Assembly: GCA_025463135.1 (NCBI GenBank)
Contig: JAOAPY010000047.1
Location: 1 to 64,000, forward strand
Length of the DNA stretch: 64,000 nt
Origin: Acidobacteriota bacterium
Lineage (GTDB): Bacteria > Acidobacteriota > Blastocatellia > Pyrinomonadales > Pyrinomonadaceae
Reading direction: 5' to 3'
Part shown: positions 12,454 to 60,359 of the stretch, in pieces
How the letters are laid out: the number at the start of each line of letters is the position of its first letter
Numbering within the stretch: position 1 is the stretch's first letter
Position numbers and translations under genes: made by a program
The notes under the pieces: model-generated
The model's database searches: none
What the model saw: only the letters and a program-made list of their open reading frames with translations
What the model was told of the DNA's origin: nothing

Positions 12454-12638
12454 TGTTTCAGCCGAATGATGACAGGAGTCTAGAGTACCGACTTCAGTCG
12501 GACATTCTTGGCTTTGGTAACGAAACTATTAGTTTGCGACCGCGTTGAATGCCATCCATTCTCCGCAAACCCTGGGTCCCCGGCGCGCTGGGGTGGCCTT
12601 ACAGTTTGCGTTACAACTTTCAGTCGCTCGATCAGTAA
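12454..12638. repeat. Gap with a single REP copy and a second palindromic repeat
   Basis: 12480-12502 (GAGTACCGACTTCAGTCGG) is a single copy of the REP core seen around the RAYT gene at 45.6 kb. 12531-12620 carries TAGTTTGCG and CAGTTTGCGTTAC segments related to the repeat at 35022-35050. No gene. Confidence 0.6.
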
Positions 12639-40803: not shown

Positions 40804-40910
40804 AGCGTGGCACGGGCGTGAGCGTGGCACGGGCGTCCCGCCCGTGGTTCGAGAAGTTAGTGTGGCACGGGCGTCCCGCCCGTGGTTCGAGAAGTTAAAG
40901 TGGCACCGGC
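40804..40910. repeat. Tandem GC-rich palindromes (GGCACGGGCGTCCCGCCCGTG family)
   Basis: Two full copies (about 40823-40858 and 40861-40897), each a palindrome followed by GGTTCGAGAAGTTA, with partial copies at both ends. It begins just after the hslU stop. A related copy lies at 24661-24690. Confidence 0.75.
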
Positions 40911-40955
40911 ATCCGCTACCTCCATTTCGCTATTGTGATTCTCTTTCCCACAAGC

Positions 40956-42987: not shown

Positions 42988-42998
42988 CGGCGCGCTAC

Positions 42999-43077
42999 GG
43001 GCGTTTAGTGTGCCGACTTCAGTCGGGGATTTGGAACGTGACAAAAGCCCGACTGAAGTCGGCACTCTAAACGCCTG
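42999..43077. repeat. REPIN, copy 1 (two inverted REPs)
   Basis: GCGTTTAGTGTGCCGACTTC begins the left arm, and GAAGTCGGCACTCTAAACGC is in the right arm. The arms are inverted around a 12-nt centre. It ends 6 nt before the ATG of the next gene, leaving no room for a normal ribosome site there. Confidence 0.8.
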
Positions 43078-43083
43078 TAACCC

Positions 43084-45431: not shown

Positions 45432-45435
45432 AATC

Positions 45436-45511
45436 AGGCGCTTAGAGTACCGACTTCAGTCGGGTGTTTCTCTCCCCAACAAGCAATCTCGACTTAAGTT
45501 GGGAACGCCTC
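45436..45511. repeat. REPIN, copy 2, left flank of the RAYT gene
   Basis: The left arm CAGGCGCTTAGAGTACCGAC continues with TTCAGTCGGG. The right arm is degenerate (CGACTTAAGTTGGGAACGCC). It lies 97 nt before the transposase start. Confidence 0.75.
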
Positions 45512-45607: not shown

Positions 45608-46210
45608 ATGTATGACTATCGCAAGATGACTCTGCAGCAGAAACGCGAAGCCGTTCAATATCGACGCTTGCGAGACCGGCCGTGGCATTCACCACCTCAT
45701 TGGGAGTTTCTGGGACAACGACAATTCATCATCTCCGCCACCTGTTACGAGCATAAGCCTGTCATCGGCTTGACTCCAGAAAGAACGGCAGAGTGTGAAG
45801 CCGGGTTGTTGGATATGTGTGCGCAGTTCGCGCAAACTACCTATGCATGGTGCGTTTTACCAAACCACTATCACCTGCTATTGCAGACTGATCGTCTCGC
45901 AGAGCTGCGTGCGGAAATCGGAAACTTTCACGGTCGTTCCTCATTCAAATGGAACGGCGAAGACGAATGTAGAGGACGACATGTTTGGTATCGCTGCTTT
46001 GACCGGGAAATAAAATCGCAAAGACATTTCTGGGCCACTTTAAACTACATCCATCACAACCCAGTTCTTCACGGCTACGTTAGAACATGGCAGGACTGGC
46101 CCTGGTCTAGCGCTGCGATTTTTTTAGAAAGGGTTGGACGTGAGAGGGCTTTGAAGATTTGGCGAAAGTATCCAATTCTGGATTACGGCAAAAAGTGGGA
46201 TGGTGATTAA
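45608..46210 (+). CDS. REP-associated tyrosine transposase (RAYT, Y1 HUH family)
   Basis: 200 residues, ATG start with a weak ribosome site. IS200/IS605-like single-strand transposase: HUH pair His87 and His89 in LPNHYHLLLQ, and the catalytic tyrosine Tyr147 in ATLNYIHHNPVLHGYV. WPWSSAAIFL and the C-terminal tail are typical of TnpA-REP. RAYTs are single-copy domesticated transposases thought to move REP/REPIN sequences. Consistent with that, REP arms with the core CCGACTTCAGTCGG lie on both sides in inverted orientation, and further copies lie at 12.5, 43.0 and 58.3 kb. All catalytic residues are intact. Confidence 0.95.
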   Translation: MYDYRKMTLQQKREAVQYRRLRDRPWHSPPHWEFLGQRQFIISATCYEHKPVIGLTPERTAECEAGLLDMCAQFAQTTYAWCVLPNHYHLLLQTDRLAELRAEIGNFHGRSSFKWNGEDECRGRHVWYRCFDREIKSQRHFWATLNYIHHNPVLHGYVRTWQDWPWSSAAIFLERVGRERALKIWRKYPILDYGKKWDGD

Positions 46211-46225
46211 GAATGGCTAAAATGA

Positions 46226-46292
46226 CTGGCCTTAGGCGGGATCTTTCCAAGGAAGTGAAATGCCCGACTGAAGTCGGTACTCTAAACGCCTG
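46226..46292. repeat. REPIN, copy 3, right flank of the RAYT gene
   Basis: A degenerate left arm (GGCCTTAGGCGGGATC) and a well-conserved right arm (CCCGACTGAAGTCGGTACTC then TAAACGCC). It ends 10 nt before the 3' end of the ABC-F gene. Confidence 0.7.
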
Positions 46293-46302
46293 TTTGCCAT
46301 CG

Positions 46303-49150: not shown

Positions 49151-52100
49151 TCACCGCAGACGCATCGCCGGGTCGCCAAACAGCATCCACGTGCGGCGCA
49201 CGTCCGTATCGTTCGTGGTTTGTTTCGCAGCCCGCGCCGCATCACCCAGTGTCGGTCCTGTGTTGGCGGTATATTTACCCAACAAACCGCGTCGGCCCAG
49301 GCGCGTTGACGCTCCCTGGCCGCCAAACAACTGCCGGTAGAACTCCTGATCGATCGTGTTCTGACCTTCAGGCCCGGTCATGCCGCTCGACGACCACACC
49401 GCCACCGCTCCTCCAGGCGTGCGCATCAACGCTTCTGACAGACTATCGTTGTACGCATTCTGGAAGTAGCCGTTCATGCACGTCATCATCACGAACAACG
49501 ACAAGCGGTTGTTGTTCGTCAGGTTCGGCGCATCATAGATCGACAGCAGCAAAGCTCCGGTCCAGGTGCCGTTACCACCGTGACCCATAAAGTTCACCAC
49601 ACTCGGTCCCTGATTCAGGCTGCTGATGATCTGATTGTGGATCGTTGTGTCATCCGCGCTGCTGCGATTGATCACCTGCTGAGGCATCGAGGCCGGCAAC
49701 AGGCTTTGCACCGCAGTGCTCGACGATTCAAAGTCATGGTCCGCCACCATCAACGCACCACGTTGTGGATCGGGCGTCGCATTCTCATAGTTAATAATCT
49801 TTGACACCATCAGGTCCGCATCGGCGCTCGTGCGCACAGGCAGCCGGCCTATAGCCAGATCCGCCATACCGTCGTTGTCAAAGTCCGCCAGCCAATCGTC
49901 ACTGGCCGTCTCCATCAGCGCCGTGTCCACCAATTTGGTCGGTACATAGTCCGTATTGCCCTGGCCCAGATAGTTCTTCGGGTCAAAGCTGGCGTCACCC
50001 GCAAACAGAACATAATGCGGTTGCCGCGTCCAGGTGCTGGTCGCCAGTTGCAGAAAGTCATGAACTGCCTGTGGCGTGTGCTGGCCATAGCTGAACTCGT
50101 CGTAAAGGTCTTCGACGTCCACTACCTTGACCACCATCCCCTGATTGCGTCGCAACTGGGCCAACGGCTCAACGTTCGTCTTAAAGTCGCGGCTGGTGAT
50201 GATCAGGTAATCAGCGCCGGCCGTTTGCGACCACCACGAAGATGGTTCGTTGCTCTTTACGATGTCCGGATGTCCACCCTGCCCATCGACAAACGCCAGC
50301 AGCGTATGCGTCTGGCGGAACGATGCGCCCTGCACCTGCATATCCGCGGCAAAGGTGCCGTCGGGCTGCGCCGATACCGCTACTGTCTGGGTGATCTCGA
50401 CCACGTTGCGCGGGTCGGTGATATCCAGCACGCGCACGTTCGCGCTGGTAAAGCCGCCGATGCGCCGCGTCTGTTCGTTGTCGATGCCCACCGACAGCAG
50501 GTTGTTGTCGGCCGCATAGGCATGCGCATAAGTCAGCCGCACCGAGTCGACCAAACTGGCATCGATACTGCCGTCCAGCGCTACGAACTGCACGGCGTTA
50601 TCGCCGTCGTGCACCAGCGCCGCCGGCACGCTGAAGGTATGGATCGGATGATCGGCGCCGGCAAAATCGACGATGCCCAGATCCGTGCCGTTGAAACTCA
50701 CGCGCACGTGATGTGATTGCAGTGAAAGACCGACGAGCGAAACTTCCAGTTCGGCGTCGCCGCCCGTGGCGTCCACATGGTTTACCGGCAACGTTTCAGA
50801 AACCGGCGTGCCCTGGACCACGTGACCAAAAATATTTCCGTCATCGCCGTTCAGGTAAGCCGAGTAATAGATCCAGCGGTCCTTGCGCTCGATCGTGTAT
50901 TGATAGTTCTGGGCGCCGGTGGGTGGCGGCAAGGGCTGCGGGTCGCGATAAACCAGGTCCTGGATGCGCGAGCCAAAGCTGTCGGGCCTGACCACCAGAT
51001 AATAAGTCTGGGCCGCTTCCGTGGTTGACTCCAGACCGTGACCATAGAACTCCAGGTAATCGCCCGCGGTGAAATGCACCTGGTCGCCCGATAGTTTGAT
51101 GGGCACTGCGCGTCCGTTTGCGTAAAGCTGCAACTGCGGCGCGTTGACGTTCGGATCCAGCCCAGCAGCCACCAACTCCGGCTGGCCAATGCGCTGCAAT
51201 CCGTTCGTACTCACCGCCAGCTTCACACCCGGCATTGCGGCGATCTGTCTCTGCGCTATCGTAGCGTCCGGATCAACCACGCGCGGGTTGCTAAAGGCGG
51301 CTTGCTGCGCCGCAAAGACCGCCGGCCAGCCGCGGAACATCGTGCCCGTGCCTGACGTGCGGTTTTGCAGTTCATTAAGCAGCGCCGATCGTTGTGGTCC
51401 ACCCTTCGGATTGGTGTAAGCGATGGACGGTGTGATTGGACCATGCAGCGTCCGCGTCCCATCCAAATCAACATCCTCCAACCAGTAAGTGACGGCCGAT
51501 TGCTGACTGCTGATTGCTGATTGCTGATTGCCTTCTGCCTTCTGCCCACTTCCTACTTCCTTCCGTCCCACGCGGTCGGTCCAGGCATAAGCCACTCCGC
51601 CATTCATCACCGTCTGTTGTCCGGTGGTCAGCGCCGAACCGGCAATCATTGAAGGAGTAATCTGCGTACGTCGGCCGTTCTGTTCGCGATAAACCACATA
51701 ACCCAGGTTGTGTGCTTCATAACCACTCTGCCACTGCAGCGTCACTTCCCCGTTATAGTTCGTCGCCGCGAACTTCATCAGCTTGACTGCTGTCGGTGCG
51801 TTTGGTTCAGCTACTGACCAGTTCGAGAAAGTGCTCACGGCACTCAACGTGGTCGCGGTATTCGTCGCATCATCAACGTCGTCGTTTCCGTTGTCAGGGA
51901 AAGTAAAACCGGAACCTGAGCCATTGGTGTCCTTAAAGATACGATAGTTGGCTTCCGTACTCGTTCCGGGGACATCGGCGTCAAGATACTTGAAGGACAC
52001 AACCGCGCTCGTTAGGCCGCTATTAGTAAGGCTCCAATATCTTGCGAGCGCCTTGCCTGTAAGGACCACGCCCGGCATTGTCGATTGGGTGGCACTAACG

Positions 52101-57508: not shown

Positions 57509-57574
57509 ATCAAAAACTCCTTAGGGCTATTGGGCAAACGCGTCGGCCAAATTGGGAGCCGCCGCGGAAAATCG

Positions 57575-57630
57575 AAATCAGAAAACAGAAGTCAGAAGTC
57601 AGAAGTGAGAGACCAGAAATCAGAGATCAG
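57575..57630. repeat. Eight heptanucleotide units upstream of the C25 gene
   Basis: Units: AAATCAG, AAAACAG, AAGTCAG, AAGTCAG, AAGTGAG, AGACCAG, AAATCAG, AGATCAG. Intergenic, between the C25 start and the stop of the nucleotidyltransferase. Confidence 0.9.
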
Positions 57631-57639
57631 AAGTTGGTG

Positions 57640-57735
57640 TCACGTCGCTAAAGCGACGGACCAAAATCCTTTGCTGTCCTGGACTCCCTGCCTTGAATCA
57701 CAGGGCTAAACTCAACTGCCGCTACGCGGCGAAAA
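57640..57735. repeat. Palindromic repeat overlapping the 3' end of the nucleotidyltransferase gene
   Basis: CGTCGCTAAAGCGACG (57646-57661), then CACAGGGCTAAACTC and GCCGCTACGCGGCGAAAACC. A partial copy of the second unit (GCGGCGGCAAAGCCGCGAAAACC) is at about 60175. The gene's last 25 or so codons and its stop lie inside this repeat. Confidence 0.65.
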
Positions 57736-58973
57736 CCTGTGTGCATCATTAGCGTCAATTGCGACGGCAGATTCACGCTGCGACGCAACAGGTCCGCGCA
57801 CTGATAGGGCGCGCGCGGAAAATTGTTCATGGGTGCGCGCATCCCGAACGTGGCGATCACCGGGCGGTCCCAACGCGCGCGGAATTCGCGAAACAACGTC
57901 TTGGGGTCGGTGAGGTGGTTGACCAATGTCACCAGGAGCGAGCGCGTTTCACTCGGCCCCCTGGCGCGACCCCACTGTCTGAGTACGGCAGGCGCGAGCC
58001 AGCGAGGAATTGCGAATTGCGAATTGCGAATTGCGAATTCGTTACTCGGAGCATTGACGTCTGCGCCGAGGAGTTGCTGTGCGAGGCCGATGGTGCAGGC
58101 GACCCAATCGGCGACTAACGGATCAGCACCTAAGCAACGCGCCCAATCAAAGTCCGGTCCGCGCGATTCCACTGCGAGTGCGATGTCACACAACCACAAA
58201 GGCCGCCACGCGCCGCTGCGCAGCAGGTGCAGGCACAGGATGCGCAGGTGATCTTCGGCGCCAAGGACACGTACTTTTTCTTCGCCCAGGCTGACGAGTT
58301 CCGAGCGTTCGAAAAGCGCGTCCCAACAGGTGTTTAGAGTACCGCCTTCAGGCGGGTTTTTTGGTAGGGAAGAGAAAAGCCCGACTGAAGTCGGTACTCT
58401 AAGCGCCTGTTGCCCAGAGCCGAACTTTGTGAAGCCGTCGTGCAGATCGACGTAGTGCCCGGCAATATTCTCCAGACATTTCAACGCGGCTTCGGCCCGT
58501 GCAAATTGATCCGGCCGCACGCACAGATCGATGTCGCCGTAGGGACGCAGCGCGCGATCCGGATAATGCCGCGCGATGGCCCAACCCTTGACCAGAATCG
58601 GTTCAATCCCTTCGGCGCGCAACAGTGAGAGAACATACTTGATCTCGCGTTCATGAATCAGCGCGTTCAAACGCGAGCGCCGATACGCATCATGCAACAG
58701 CTCCCCTGATGCTGAATCTGCCAGAGAGGAATTTCGTATGCGCCACCAACCGAGCGCCGCACTGCCCGAAGCGTAAAGCAAGCGCGTCACGTCGGCGAGT
58801 TGCGCCTCTGAAATTTCCGGATTGGACGGGGATTCGCGCCAGACGCCGGCCATGACGCGCGCTACCAGGGCGCCCGTGTCTACCTCCCGAAGAGTGCTGC
58901 CCGCGTAAGCAGGCCGATCACCCCAAGGGTTCTGATTTTCTCCTGGATTCCGATTAGCTGGAGCTAGGGGCAT
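57648..58973 (-). CDS. Nucleotidyltransferase family protein (NTP_transf_5-like) carrying repeat insertions
   Basis: I start at the ATG at 58973 (441 aa); an earlier in-frame start at 59108 would overlap the PqqD gene. Residues about 110-170 contain the fold's signature: ILVKGWAIARHYPD and RPYGDIDLCV, giving the GxxAxxxY and DxD metal site of the uncharacterised nucleotidyltransferase family often found with PqqD and lasso-type peptide genes. Three parts look non-native: residues about 188-216 (QALRVPTSVGLFSSLP...) encoded by a REPIN, 311-323 (NEFAIRNSQFAIP) by heptamers, and the last 27 by a palindrome. The frame survives all of them. It follows the PqqD gene by 67 nt, so they are likely cotranscribed. 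Confidence 0.85.
   Translation of the reverse strand: MPLAPANRNPGENQNPWGDRPAYAGSTLREVDTGALVARVMAGVWRESPSNPEISEAQLADVTRLLYASGSAALGWWRIRNSSLADSASGELLHDAYRRSRLNALIHEREIKYVLSLLRAEGIEPILVKGWAIARHYPDRALRPYGDIDLCVRPDQFARAEAALKCLENIAGHYVDLHDGFTKFGSGQQALRVPTSVGLFSSLPKNPPEGGTLNTCWDALFERSELVSLGEEKVRVLGAEDHLRILCLHLLRSGAWRPLWLCDIALAVESRGPDFDWARCLGADPLVADWVACTIGLAQQLLGADVNAPSNEFAIRNSQFAIPRWLAPAVLRQWGRARGPSETRSLLVTLVNHLTDPKTLFREFRARWDRPVIATFGMRAPMNNFPRAPYQCADLLRRSVNLPSQLTLMMHTGFRRVAAVEFSPVIQGRESRTAKDFGPSL
58007..58040. repeat. Heptanucleotide array inside the nucleotidyltransferase gene
   Basis: Four tandem GAATTGC units (58007-58034) and a partial fifth, in the coding frame of the minus-strand gene. Confidence 0.9.
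58327..58409. repeat. REPIN, copy 4, inside the nucleotidyltransferase gene
   Basis: Left arm CAGGTGTTTAGAGTACCGCC, centre with TTTTTTGGTAGGGAAGAG, right arm GACTGAAGTCGGTACTCTAA then GCGCCTG. Same family as the REPs flanking the RAYT gene, here in frame within coding sequence. Confidence 0.85.
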
Positions 58974-59040
58974 TAGCTTCTTAATCCGATAAGTATTCGC
59001 GAACGCGCTTTGCGCCGCAGGAATTTGTGTACAGCTTCCG

Positions 59041-59535
59041 TCAGGAGCAAACACCCACACAGAACGTACCGTTGCAGGTACATCCGGCACAGCACGTTTT
59101 GGAGGCACAAGGCTGGCCCGAGGTTGCGCAGGTTGCCGCGTCAGCCGGCGTCGGGGAAACGATGGAAGTTATCAGCGGCACCGCGACCACGGCCGCAACG
59201 CCAAGCGCGCGCACCATCTGGCGCCGCGACATGCCCGCCACTTGAGCGGGGAGCGTCAGCGGCTGTTCCAGTAAGTGGAGACTCTCCAGTTGTCGTAGTG
59301 CCAACCACACCGCGTCTTCAGGGCAGGGCGCCTGCAATTCTCTGCCTACCCGTCGTGCGATTTCGTGCGGCGAGGTGCGACCGTCGCACTGCTTCCAAAC
59401 CAAAGCGGCGGTTAGATTGAGACAGTGGGCCTGGTGCCGCTCGAGATCGTAGACCAGCACCTCGTCCGGCATTTCGTCAATCACCAGATCCTGCCGGCGC
59501 ATCCTGGGATAGACCCGCAGCGCGTTTTGTTTCAT
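59041..59535 (-). CDS. PqqD-like (RRE) domain fused to Tat-like segment and Cys-rich tail
   Basis: 164 residues, GGAGG 4 nt before the ATG. Residues 1-95 are a PqqD-type winged helix, the RiPP recognition element that binds leader peptides (VLVYDLERHQAHCLNLTAAL, VWKQCDGRTSPHEIARRV). At 103 an internal SRRQMVRALGVAAVVAVPLI looks exactly like a Tat signal, with an ADA-like cleavage end near 133. The last 31 residues hold eight cysteines (136, 143, 148, 149, 152, 154, 159, 163) in a knottin-like spacing. So leader-binding domain, export signal and a possible peptide product are on one chain. Either the tail is a mature cargo released after export, or it is an iron-sulfur or metal site. Not resolved. 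Confidence 0.82.
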   Translation of the reverse strand: MKQNALRVYPRMRRQDLVIDEMPDEVLVYDLERHQAHCLNLTAALVWKQCDGRTSPHEIARRVGRELQAPCPEDAVWLALRQLESLHLLEQPLTLPAQVAGMSRRQMVRALGVAAVVAVPLITSIVSPTPADAATCATSGQPCASKTCCAGCTCNGTFCVGVCS

Positions 59536-60058: not shown

Positions 60059-60359
60059 GATAGTTGGGGCCTCCTCAGTCAAAAGATGCCGCGGCTTATA
60101 TCATGCGTGCTGTGGGATGGCAATGAGGAAGTGAGACAGATGAAGGATGACGTCGACGCGTGAGTGTTTGTGTGCGGCGGCAAAGCCGCGAAAACCTGAG
60201 GGGAGAGGGGTGACACGGAGACGGGGGACGGAACAACTCAAACTTCGTTTAGAAAGAGTCTTGTCCGCCGGACGCGCATGAGAGGTCCTTTCGCGTTTGA
60301 CCTATAGCGTGATCGGCGCACAGGTGCCCTTTCTAAACGGGTCCGTGTTTCTTAATGCG
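60059..60359. other. Intergenic region with repeat fragment
   Basis: About 60167-60200 carries a partial copy of the GCCGCG...GAAAACCTG repeat seen at 57720. No gene or terminator is clear. Confidence 0.35.

Follow-up and report, generated by a model that had tools for sequence, protein, structure and literature searches.

A REPIN read in frame within an NTP_transf_5 nucleotidyltransferase gene of an acidobacterium

The window, i.e., the whole 64,000-nt stretch of DNA that was analyzed, contained a two-arm REPIN lying in frame within a gene for an NTP_transf_5 (PF14907) nucleotidyltransferase. Very probably, a non-autonomous REPIN inserted into this gene, its likely mover being a RAYT-like transposase, and the insertion survived because a net length that is a multiple of three, an open landing frame and a tolerant loop coincided.

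The element was an unstranded 89-bp palindrome at 58324-58412, matched by the family profile at 58324-58413. Its inverted-repeat arms (58324-58361 and 58375-58412; 38 nt each) were 87% complementary and separated by a 13-nt spacer. As single-stranded DNA the inverted repeat had a folding energy of -28.6 kcal/mol (z -7.65 relative to 200 shuffled sequences) and the RNA hairpin of the element reached -46 kcal/mol (z -6.55). The element thus consisted of two inverted REPs able to form one hairpin, as expected of a REPIN. The net insertion covered 58326-58409 on the minus strand (84 nt, or 28 residues, QALRVPTSVGLFSSLPKNPPEGGTLNTC); its bounds represent the net difference from homologues and, because the nearest of these were only about half identical, they do not fix the exact joint or a target duplication. 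The coordinates of the earlier note, 58327-58409, were correct to within one base.

The host open reading frame (ORF; 57648-59108, minus strand, true start uncertain) encoded 486 residues, among them the insert-derived stretch QALRVPTSVGLFSSLPK. It had a single PF14907 match (residues 106-326, E 1.4e-30) that continued unbroken across the insert. The frame was open throughout the element, in agreement with the earlier note that a complete REPIN is read through here without a stop. Adjoining the nucleotidyltransferase gene, 59041-59535 (minus strand) encoded a small PqqD-domain protein that matched a TAT signal weakly and had a cysteine-rich tail, a neighbor that possibly hints at a peptide-modification context.

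A search of the family genomes with the host protein gave matches in 84 of 119 genomes (G000 included), and loci were obtained and aligned for 29 homologues among the 84; matches without loci stand outside the alignment. All 29 aligned homologues were without the 28 insert columns. The same genome also encodes a paralogue on contig 24, which likewise lacked the 28 residues, as did all three remote homologues (28-30% identity, with coordinates seemingly bridging the insert), which had no REP match either. Homologues with the same residues encoded by non-REP DNA were considered as well, and none occurred among the 29, the paralogue and the three remote sequences. A scan of genome contigs with the host protein as query detected no relative.

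The AlphaFold2 model of the host protein, built on a 29-sequence alignment, had a mean pLDDT of 81. The insert corresponded to residues 188-215, and pLDDT fell below 50 at 186-203 and 205-208, which took in no fewer than 20 of the insert's 28 residues. In model and alignment the insert came after the strand at 174-178, which bears the invariant D175, so that it was modeled mainly as a disordered loop behind a conserved strand. A modeled helix at 212-222 took in the last insert residues, and the loop is therefore not wholly disordered in the model. These features fit a largely disordered loop that the protein would tolerate. A Foldseek search of the PDB returned nothing at E <= 0.001; the best hit was 5uvd (E 0.0097), followed by MenT1, which is consistent with a nucleotidyltransferase fold and nothing beyond it.

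A RAYT-like REP-associated tyrosine transposase gene was located at 45608-46211 (plus strand). It scored 75.5 bits against NF047646 (E 3.9e-21; curated cut-off 80) and 26.8 bits against Y1_Tnp (above the cut-off of 23), and its translation contained NHYH and YIHHNP, similar to the HuH and tyrosine motifs listed in the accessible part of PMC6006769. REPs of the same family as the 58324-58412 element were found upstream (45433-45504, unstranded, profile positions 19-87 of 90) and downstream (46229-46294, unstranded, profile positions 24-87 of 90) of this gene, which bears out the RAYT association claimed before. A second, weak relative (31% identity) was located on contig 16. The REP foot was GTAC, sometimes GTTC, in the copies and so departed from GT[AG]G, the canonical REP foot according to the available text of PMC6006769, which also describes classes with other feet. 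The GTAC foot weakens only the claim to the canonical GTAG class.

Judged from these sequences, the product of the RAYT-like gene at 45.6-46.2 kb, or a related enzyme, probably moved the copy at 58324-58412 into the NTP_transf_5 gene. The net 84 nt, a multiple of three, would have kept the downstream frame, and the landing frame would by chance have been open through the element. The landing site would be a loop that directly follows the conserved strand and could tolerate 28 residues, most of them disordered. The insertion would then be nearly neutral, and the protein would presumably be made with the insert in place.

Copies of the family were numerous. The 18-nt core GTACCGACTTCAGTCGGG (<=3 mismatches) occurred seven times in the window vs 0.06 expected; a first-guess REP core had been discarded after a single match, below chance expectation. 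Window copies outside the host gene included a full-length REPIN at 42995-43080 and a single-arm partial copy at 12470-12515 (both unstranded profile matches). In the own genome the core occurred at least 56+58 times vs 2+4 for the reversed pattern. BLAST gave at least 72 matches, with palindromes counted on both strands and the figure resting on the best 40 of 100 candidates scored. A profile built from 23 copies and searched in the genome stretches fetched identified at least 81 element places, 51 of them full-length. These dispersed copies lay mainly outside genes: 80 of 81 were not inside a frame coding on both sides, and the copy at 58324-58412 was the only one open throughout with a coding signal on both sides. 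At 15 of the 81 places, an upstream coding frame terminated within the REP element, the repeat providing the stop codon.

Other repeats were also present in the window. A GAATTGC heptanucleotide array (4.7 copies, 58007-58039) was in frame in the host ORF as NEFAIRNSQFAIP, where homologues were shorter and different. Another heptanucleotide array (57569-57632) lay immediately downstream of the host ORF, and a third (51490-51531) was in frame in a 2785-residue ORF as QQSAISSQQSAV. A second palindromic repeat type, ending GCGAAAACCTG, was found at 57719-57739 and 60178-60198 (two matches vs 0.02 expected); the former overlapped the terminal part of the host ORF, which at this 3' end extended past most aligned homologues. 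A tandem array at 40804-40914 comprised 2.4 copies of a palindrome-containing, GC-rich 38-nt unit.

The REPIN family was matched in 10 of the 119 family genomes, G000 included. Three-frame peptides of the element were searched in the own genome, in eight relatives and in 11 genomes (in the last, among the matches listed), and 16 stretches with mostly long open frames from the eight relatives were examined. In three of the 16 (G114, G115, and G118) the REPIN lay inside an ORF of about 500 residues with a coding signal on both sides. G113 provided a weaker case, a diverged element (L126:1094-1168; 34.3 bits) read in frame within an ORF for a Ser/Thr kinase; the element directly followed the kinase domain and preceded the C-terminal part.

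The protein of about 500 residues was a Y-family polymerase relative, which we take to be ImuB-like. Its insert-free homologue L141 scored 22.6 against IMS_C (cut-off 20.7), and IMS or IMS_C scores were under the cut-off in L122 and L125. The ImuB-like search matched 52 of 119 family genomes, from which 30 loci were obtained and aligned. Five of the 30, from five closely related species (G114, G115, G116, G117, and G118), had an in-frame insert at one common loop: L134:2224-2403, L135:2152-2331, L136:2089-2268, L137:2200-2379, and L138:2086-2265. The other 25 loci had none, including those of G112 and G113, which belong to the same genus, and that of the window's own genome.

The inserts of G114, G115, and G118 belonged to the REPIN family of the window. 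The G116 insert was a different palindrome with perfect 18-nt arms, and its family had 22 matches in G116, 47 in G117, 87 in G118, 36 in G113, and none in G112 or G114 (both strands). The core of the G117 insert represented a third family (33+35 in G117, 55+53 in G116, 0 in controls); the whole G117 insert was not strongly folded (z -1.1), and repeat status is therefore claimed for its core only. In the G115 protein model, a low-confidence segment (258-280) was placed between strands at 244-255 and 281-290; with a mean pLDDT of 66 and a pTM of 0.42, the model serves for this strand-insert-strand layout only.

On a tree of the insert-free protein G114 was sister to G116 (100/100), and G117 was the weakly supported partner of G115 (82/73). 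The occurrence of the REPIN in three of these genomes required three changes on this tree, at least two of them forced by supported branches, and these changes may represent one gain and two losses. Because the tree was discordant with the REPIN carriers, either the one ImuB-like loop was hit repeatedly or inserts were exchanged or replaced.

These inserts raise the alternative that in this acidobacterial family the beta-hairpin loop of the ImuB-like translesion polymerase serves as a landing site, preferred or selected, for unrelated palindromic families, with the window insertion a stray product of the same repeat activity. We consider this reading unlikely, although selection may possibly act on the ImuB-like insert. 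Were it true, a repeat-coded loop or hairpin would alter mutagenic repair, and repeat populations would interact with the mutation machinery. Among 84 ImuB-like loci beyond the five close species, the loop had nine residues in 45, five residues in eight and was longer in the rest. Of 24 long loops, four of them from the close species, two matched flanking DNA elsewhere, vs 1 of 48 control segments, which gives no support to a repeat origin of the loops beyond the five close species. The Terriglobia ImuB-like loops (L197, L198, L202 and other loci of L183-L213) were long, reaching 96 residues, and diverse, and L198 and L202 matched the flanks of other loci. A search of open-licence papers for REPs or palindromes within imuB or within genes of Acidobacteriota did not turn up the ImuB-like loop case.

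A function of the window insert itself, in which the 28 residues or the mRNA or DNA hairpin had been co-opted to modify the enzyme or how its gene is expressed, is quite improbable. The strong RNA hairpin (-46 kcal/mol, z -6.55) would suit such a role. So would the likeness of the ImuB-like inserts of G114 and G115, whose DNA was 95.4% identical, compared with a maximum of 82.8% over 416 other 29-codon windows; dS was 0.05 in the insert (29 codons, few sites) vs 1.94 elsewhere. That likeness may instead stem from recent insertion or exchange, as the tree allows, and the window insert was unique to its own genome among the homologues examined, with low model confidence over its residues.

The earlier note had named evidence for a pseudogene as an observation that would refute its reading of an in-frame insertion. 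A host gene on its way out, with the open frame a passing accident, would accord with the heptanucleotide array at 58007-58039, with the repeat at 57719-57739 under the ORF end and with the contig 24 paralogue, which could take over. It is very improbable given the conservation of the protein, which retained 20 of 20 invariant columns and 38 of 39 columns conserved at >=90% (0.974); the columns were defined on the other 28 sequences of the alignment, whose own rows scored 0.814 to 1.0. The conserved domain was free of stops and frameshifts, and the coding-hexamer score, whose training set of 121 long ORFs from the fetched stretches included the host gene, was strongly positive on either side of the element (50 before, 29 after).

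The earlier note had also ascribed an intrinsically open frame to the element, a claim that the census of copies contradicts. The 51 full-length copies gave 102 strand readings, of which 23 were dropped with an unrecognized left arm, leaving 79. Of these 79, 21 were open in the RVPTSVG frame and 17 in each of the remaining two frames; the mean number of open frames per copy was 1.31 of six vs 1.66 for mononucleotide shuffles, so that the frame was open no more often than in shuffled sequence. The peptide QAFRVPTSVG could indeed be read at both 43.0 and 46.2 kb, but the 46.2-kb copy, said to be a REPIN like the other, covered profile positions 24-87 of 90 only and is not a whole two-arm element. 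The same peptide appears in other copies because the DNA itself is shared, and no second copy among the 81 was found inside a coding frame. That the family is selected as protein-coding, with a built-in open frame as in the Rickettsia palindromes, is hardly credible: other copies yield the same peptide and relatives hold more in-frame cases, but open frames were fewer than in shuffles, 1 of 81 copies lay in a coding frame, 15 of 81 ended the upstream one, and the relatives read the REPIN of the ImuB-like gene in a different frame (LEYRLQSG).

The REPIN insertion has parallels in known systems. Like the REPINs and RAYTs described in the available text of PMC3116915, the window family comprised an inverted REP pair with a predicted hairpin, many mainly extragenic copies and a REP-flanked RAYT-like gene; unlike those REPINs, it had longer outer arms, a GTAC foot and one copy translated within a gene. 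Enterobacterial repeat units, in the accessible part of PMC2759123, are likewise small mobile repeats with open frames inside genes, although they are MITE-like, 103-168 bp long and from other hosts. MITE fusions are treated in the part of PMC5896051 consulted.

The parallel drawn earlier with Rickettsia palindromic elements (RPE) holds in that a palindrome is tolerated in frame in the gene of a conserved protein, a likeness by description from the available portions of PMC3767692 and PMC10969869, which also mention in-frame palindromes at possible hotspots. It fails in scale: RPE are about 100-150 bp and often intragenic, and the accessible text of PMC10969869 puts the number of integrations into R. 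conorii metabolic genes at 44, whereas the window element added 84 nt and 1 of 81 copies was intragenic. Neither the frequent in-frame copies nor the above-chance open frame of the Rickettsia type was seen (1/81; 21/79, and 1.31 vs 1.66).

A close match was found in the intragenic REPs of PMC3733652 (2013). There, in the text available, most REPs are intergenic, over half of the intragenic ones are dimers or groups, and dimers wholly within ORFs mostly encode 20-30 residues; the window element was such a dimer, wholly within an ORF of more than 120 residues (28 residues in 486). That work concerns GTAG and CGTC families, unlike the GTAC foot found here, and its main text, as far as available, names no acidobacterial nucleotidyltransferase or imuB. 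It reports that intragenic REPs are frequent in repair genes, e.g., uvrA and DnaE2, and that two recB genes carry different REPs at nearly the same position, and the part seen leaves open whether REPs in DNA-repair genes are there by chance or favored. The ImuB-like loop series provides natural material on whether repair-gene REPs are chance survivors or favored. In-frame REP insertion is thus already known as a kind, and the window case is a well-documented further example, showing a mobile palindrome that would have turned into coding sequence where length, phase and a tolerant loop fitted.
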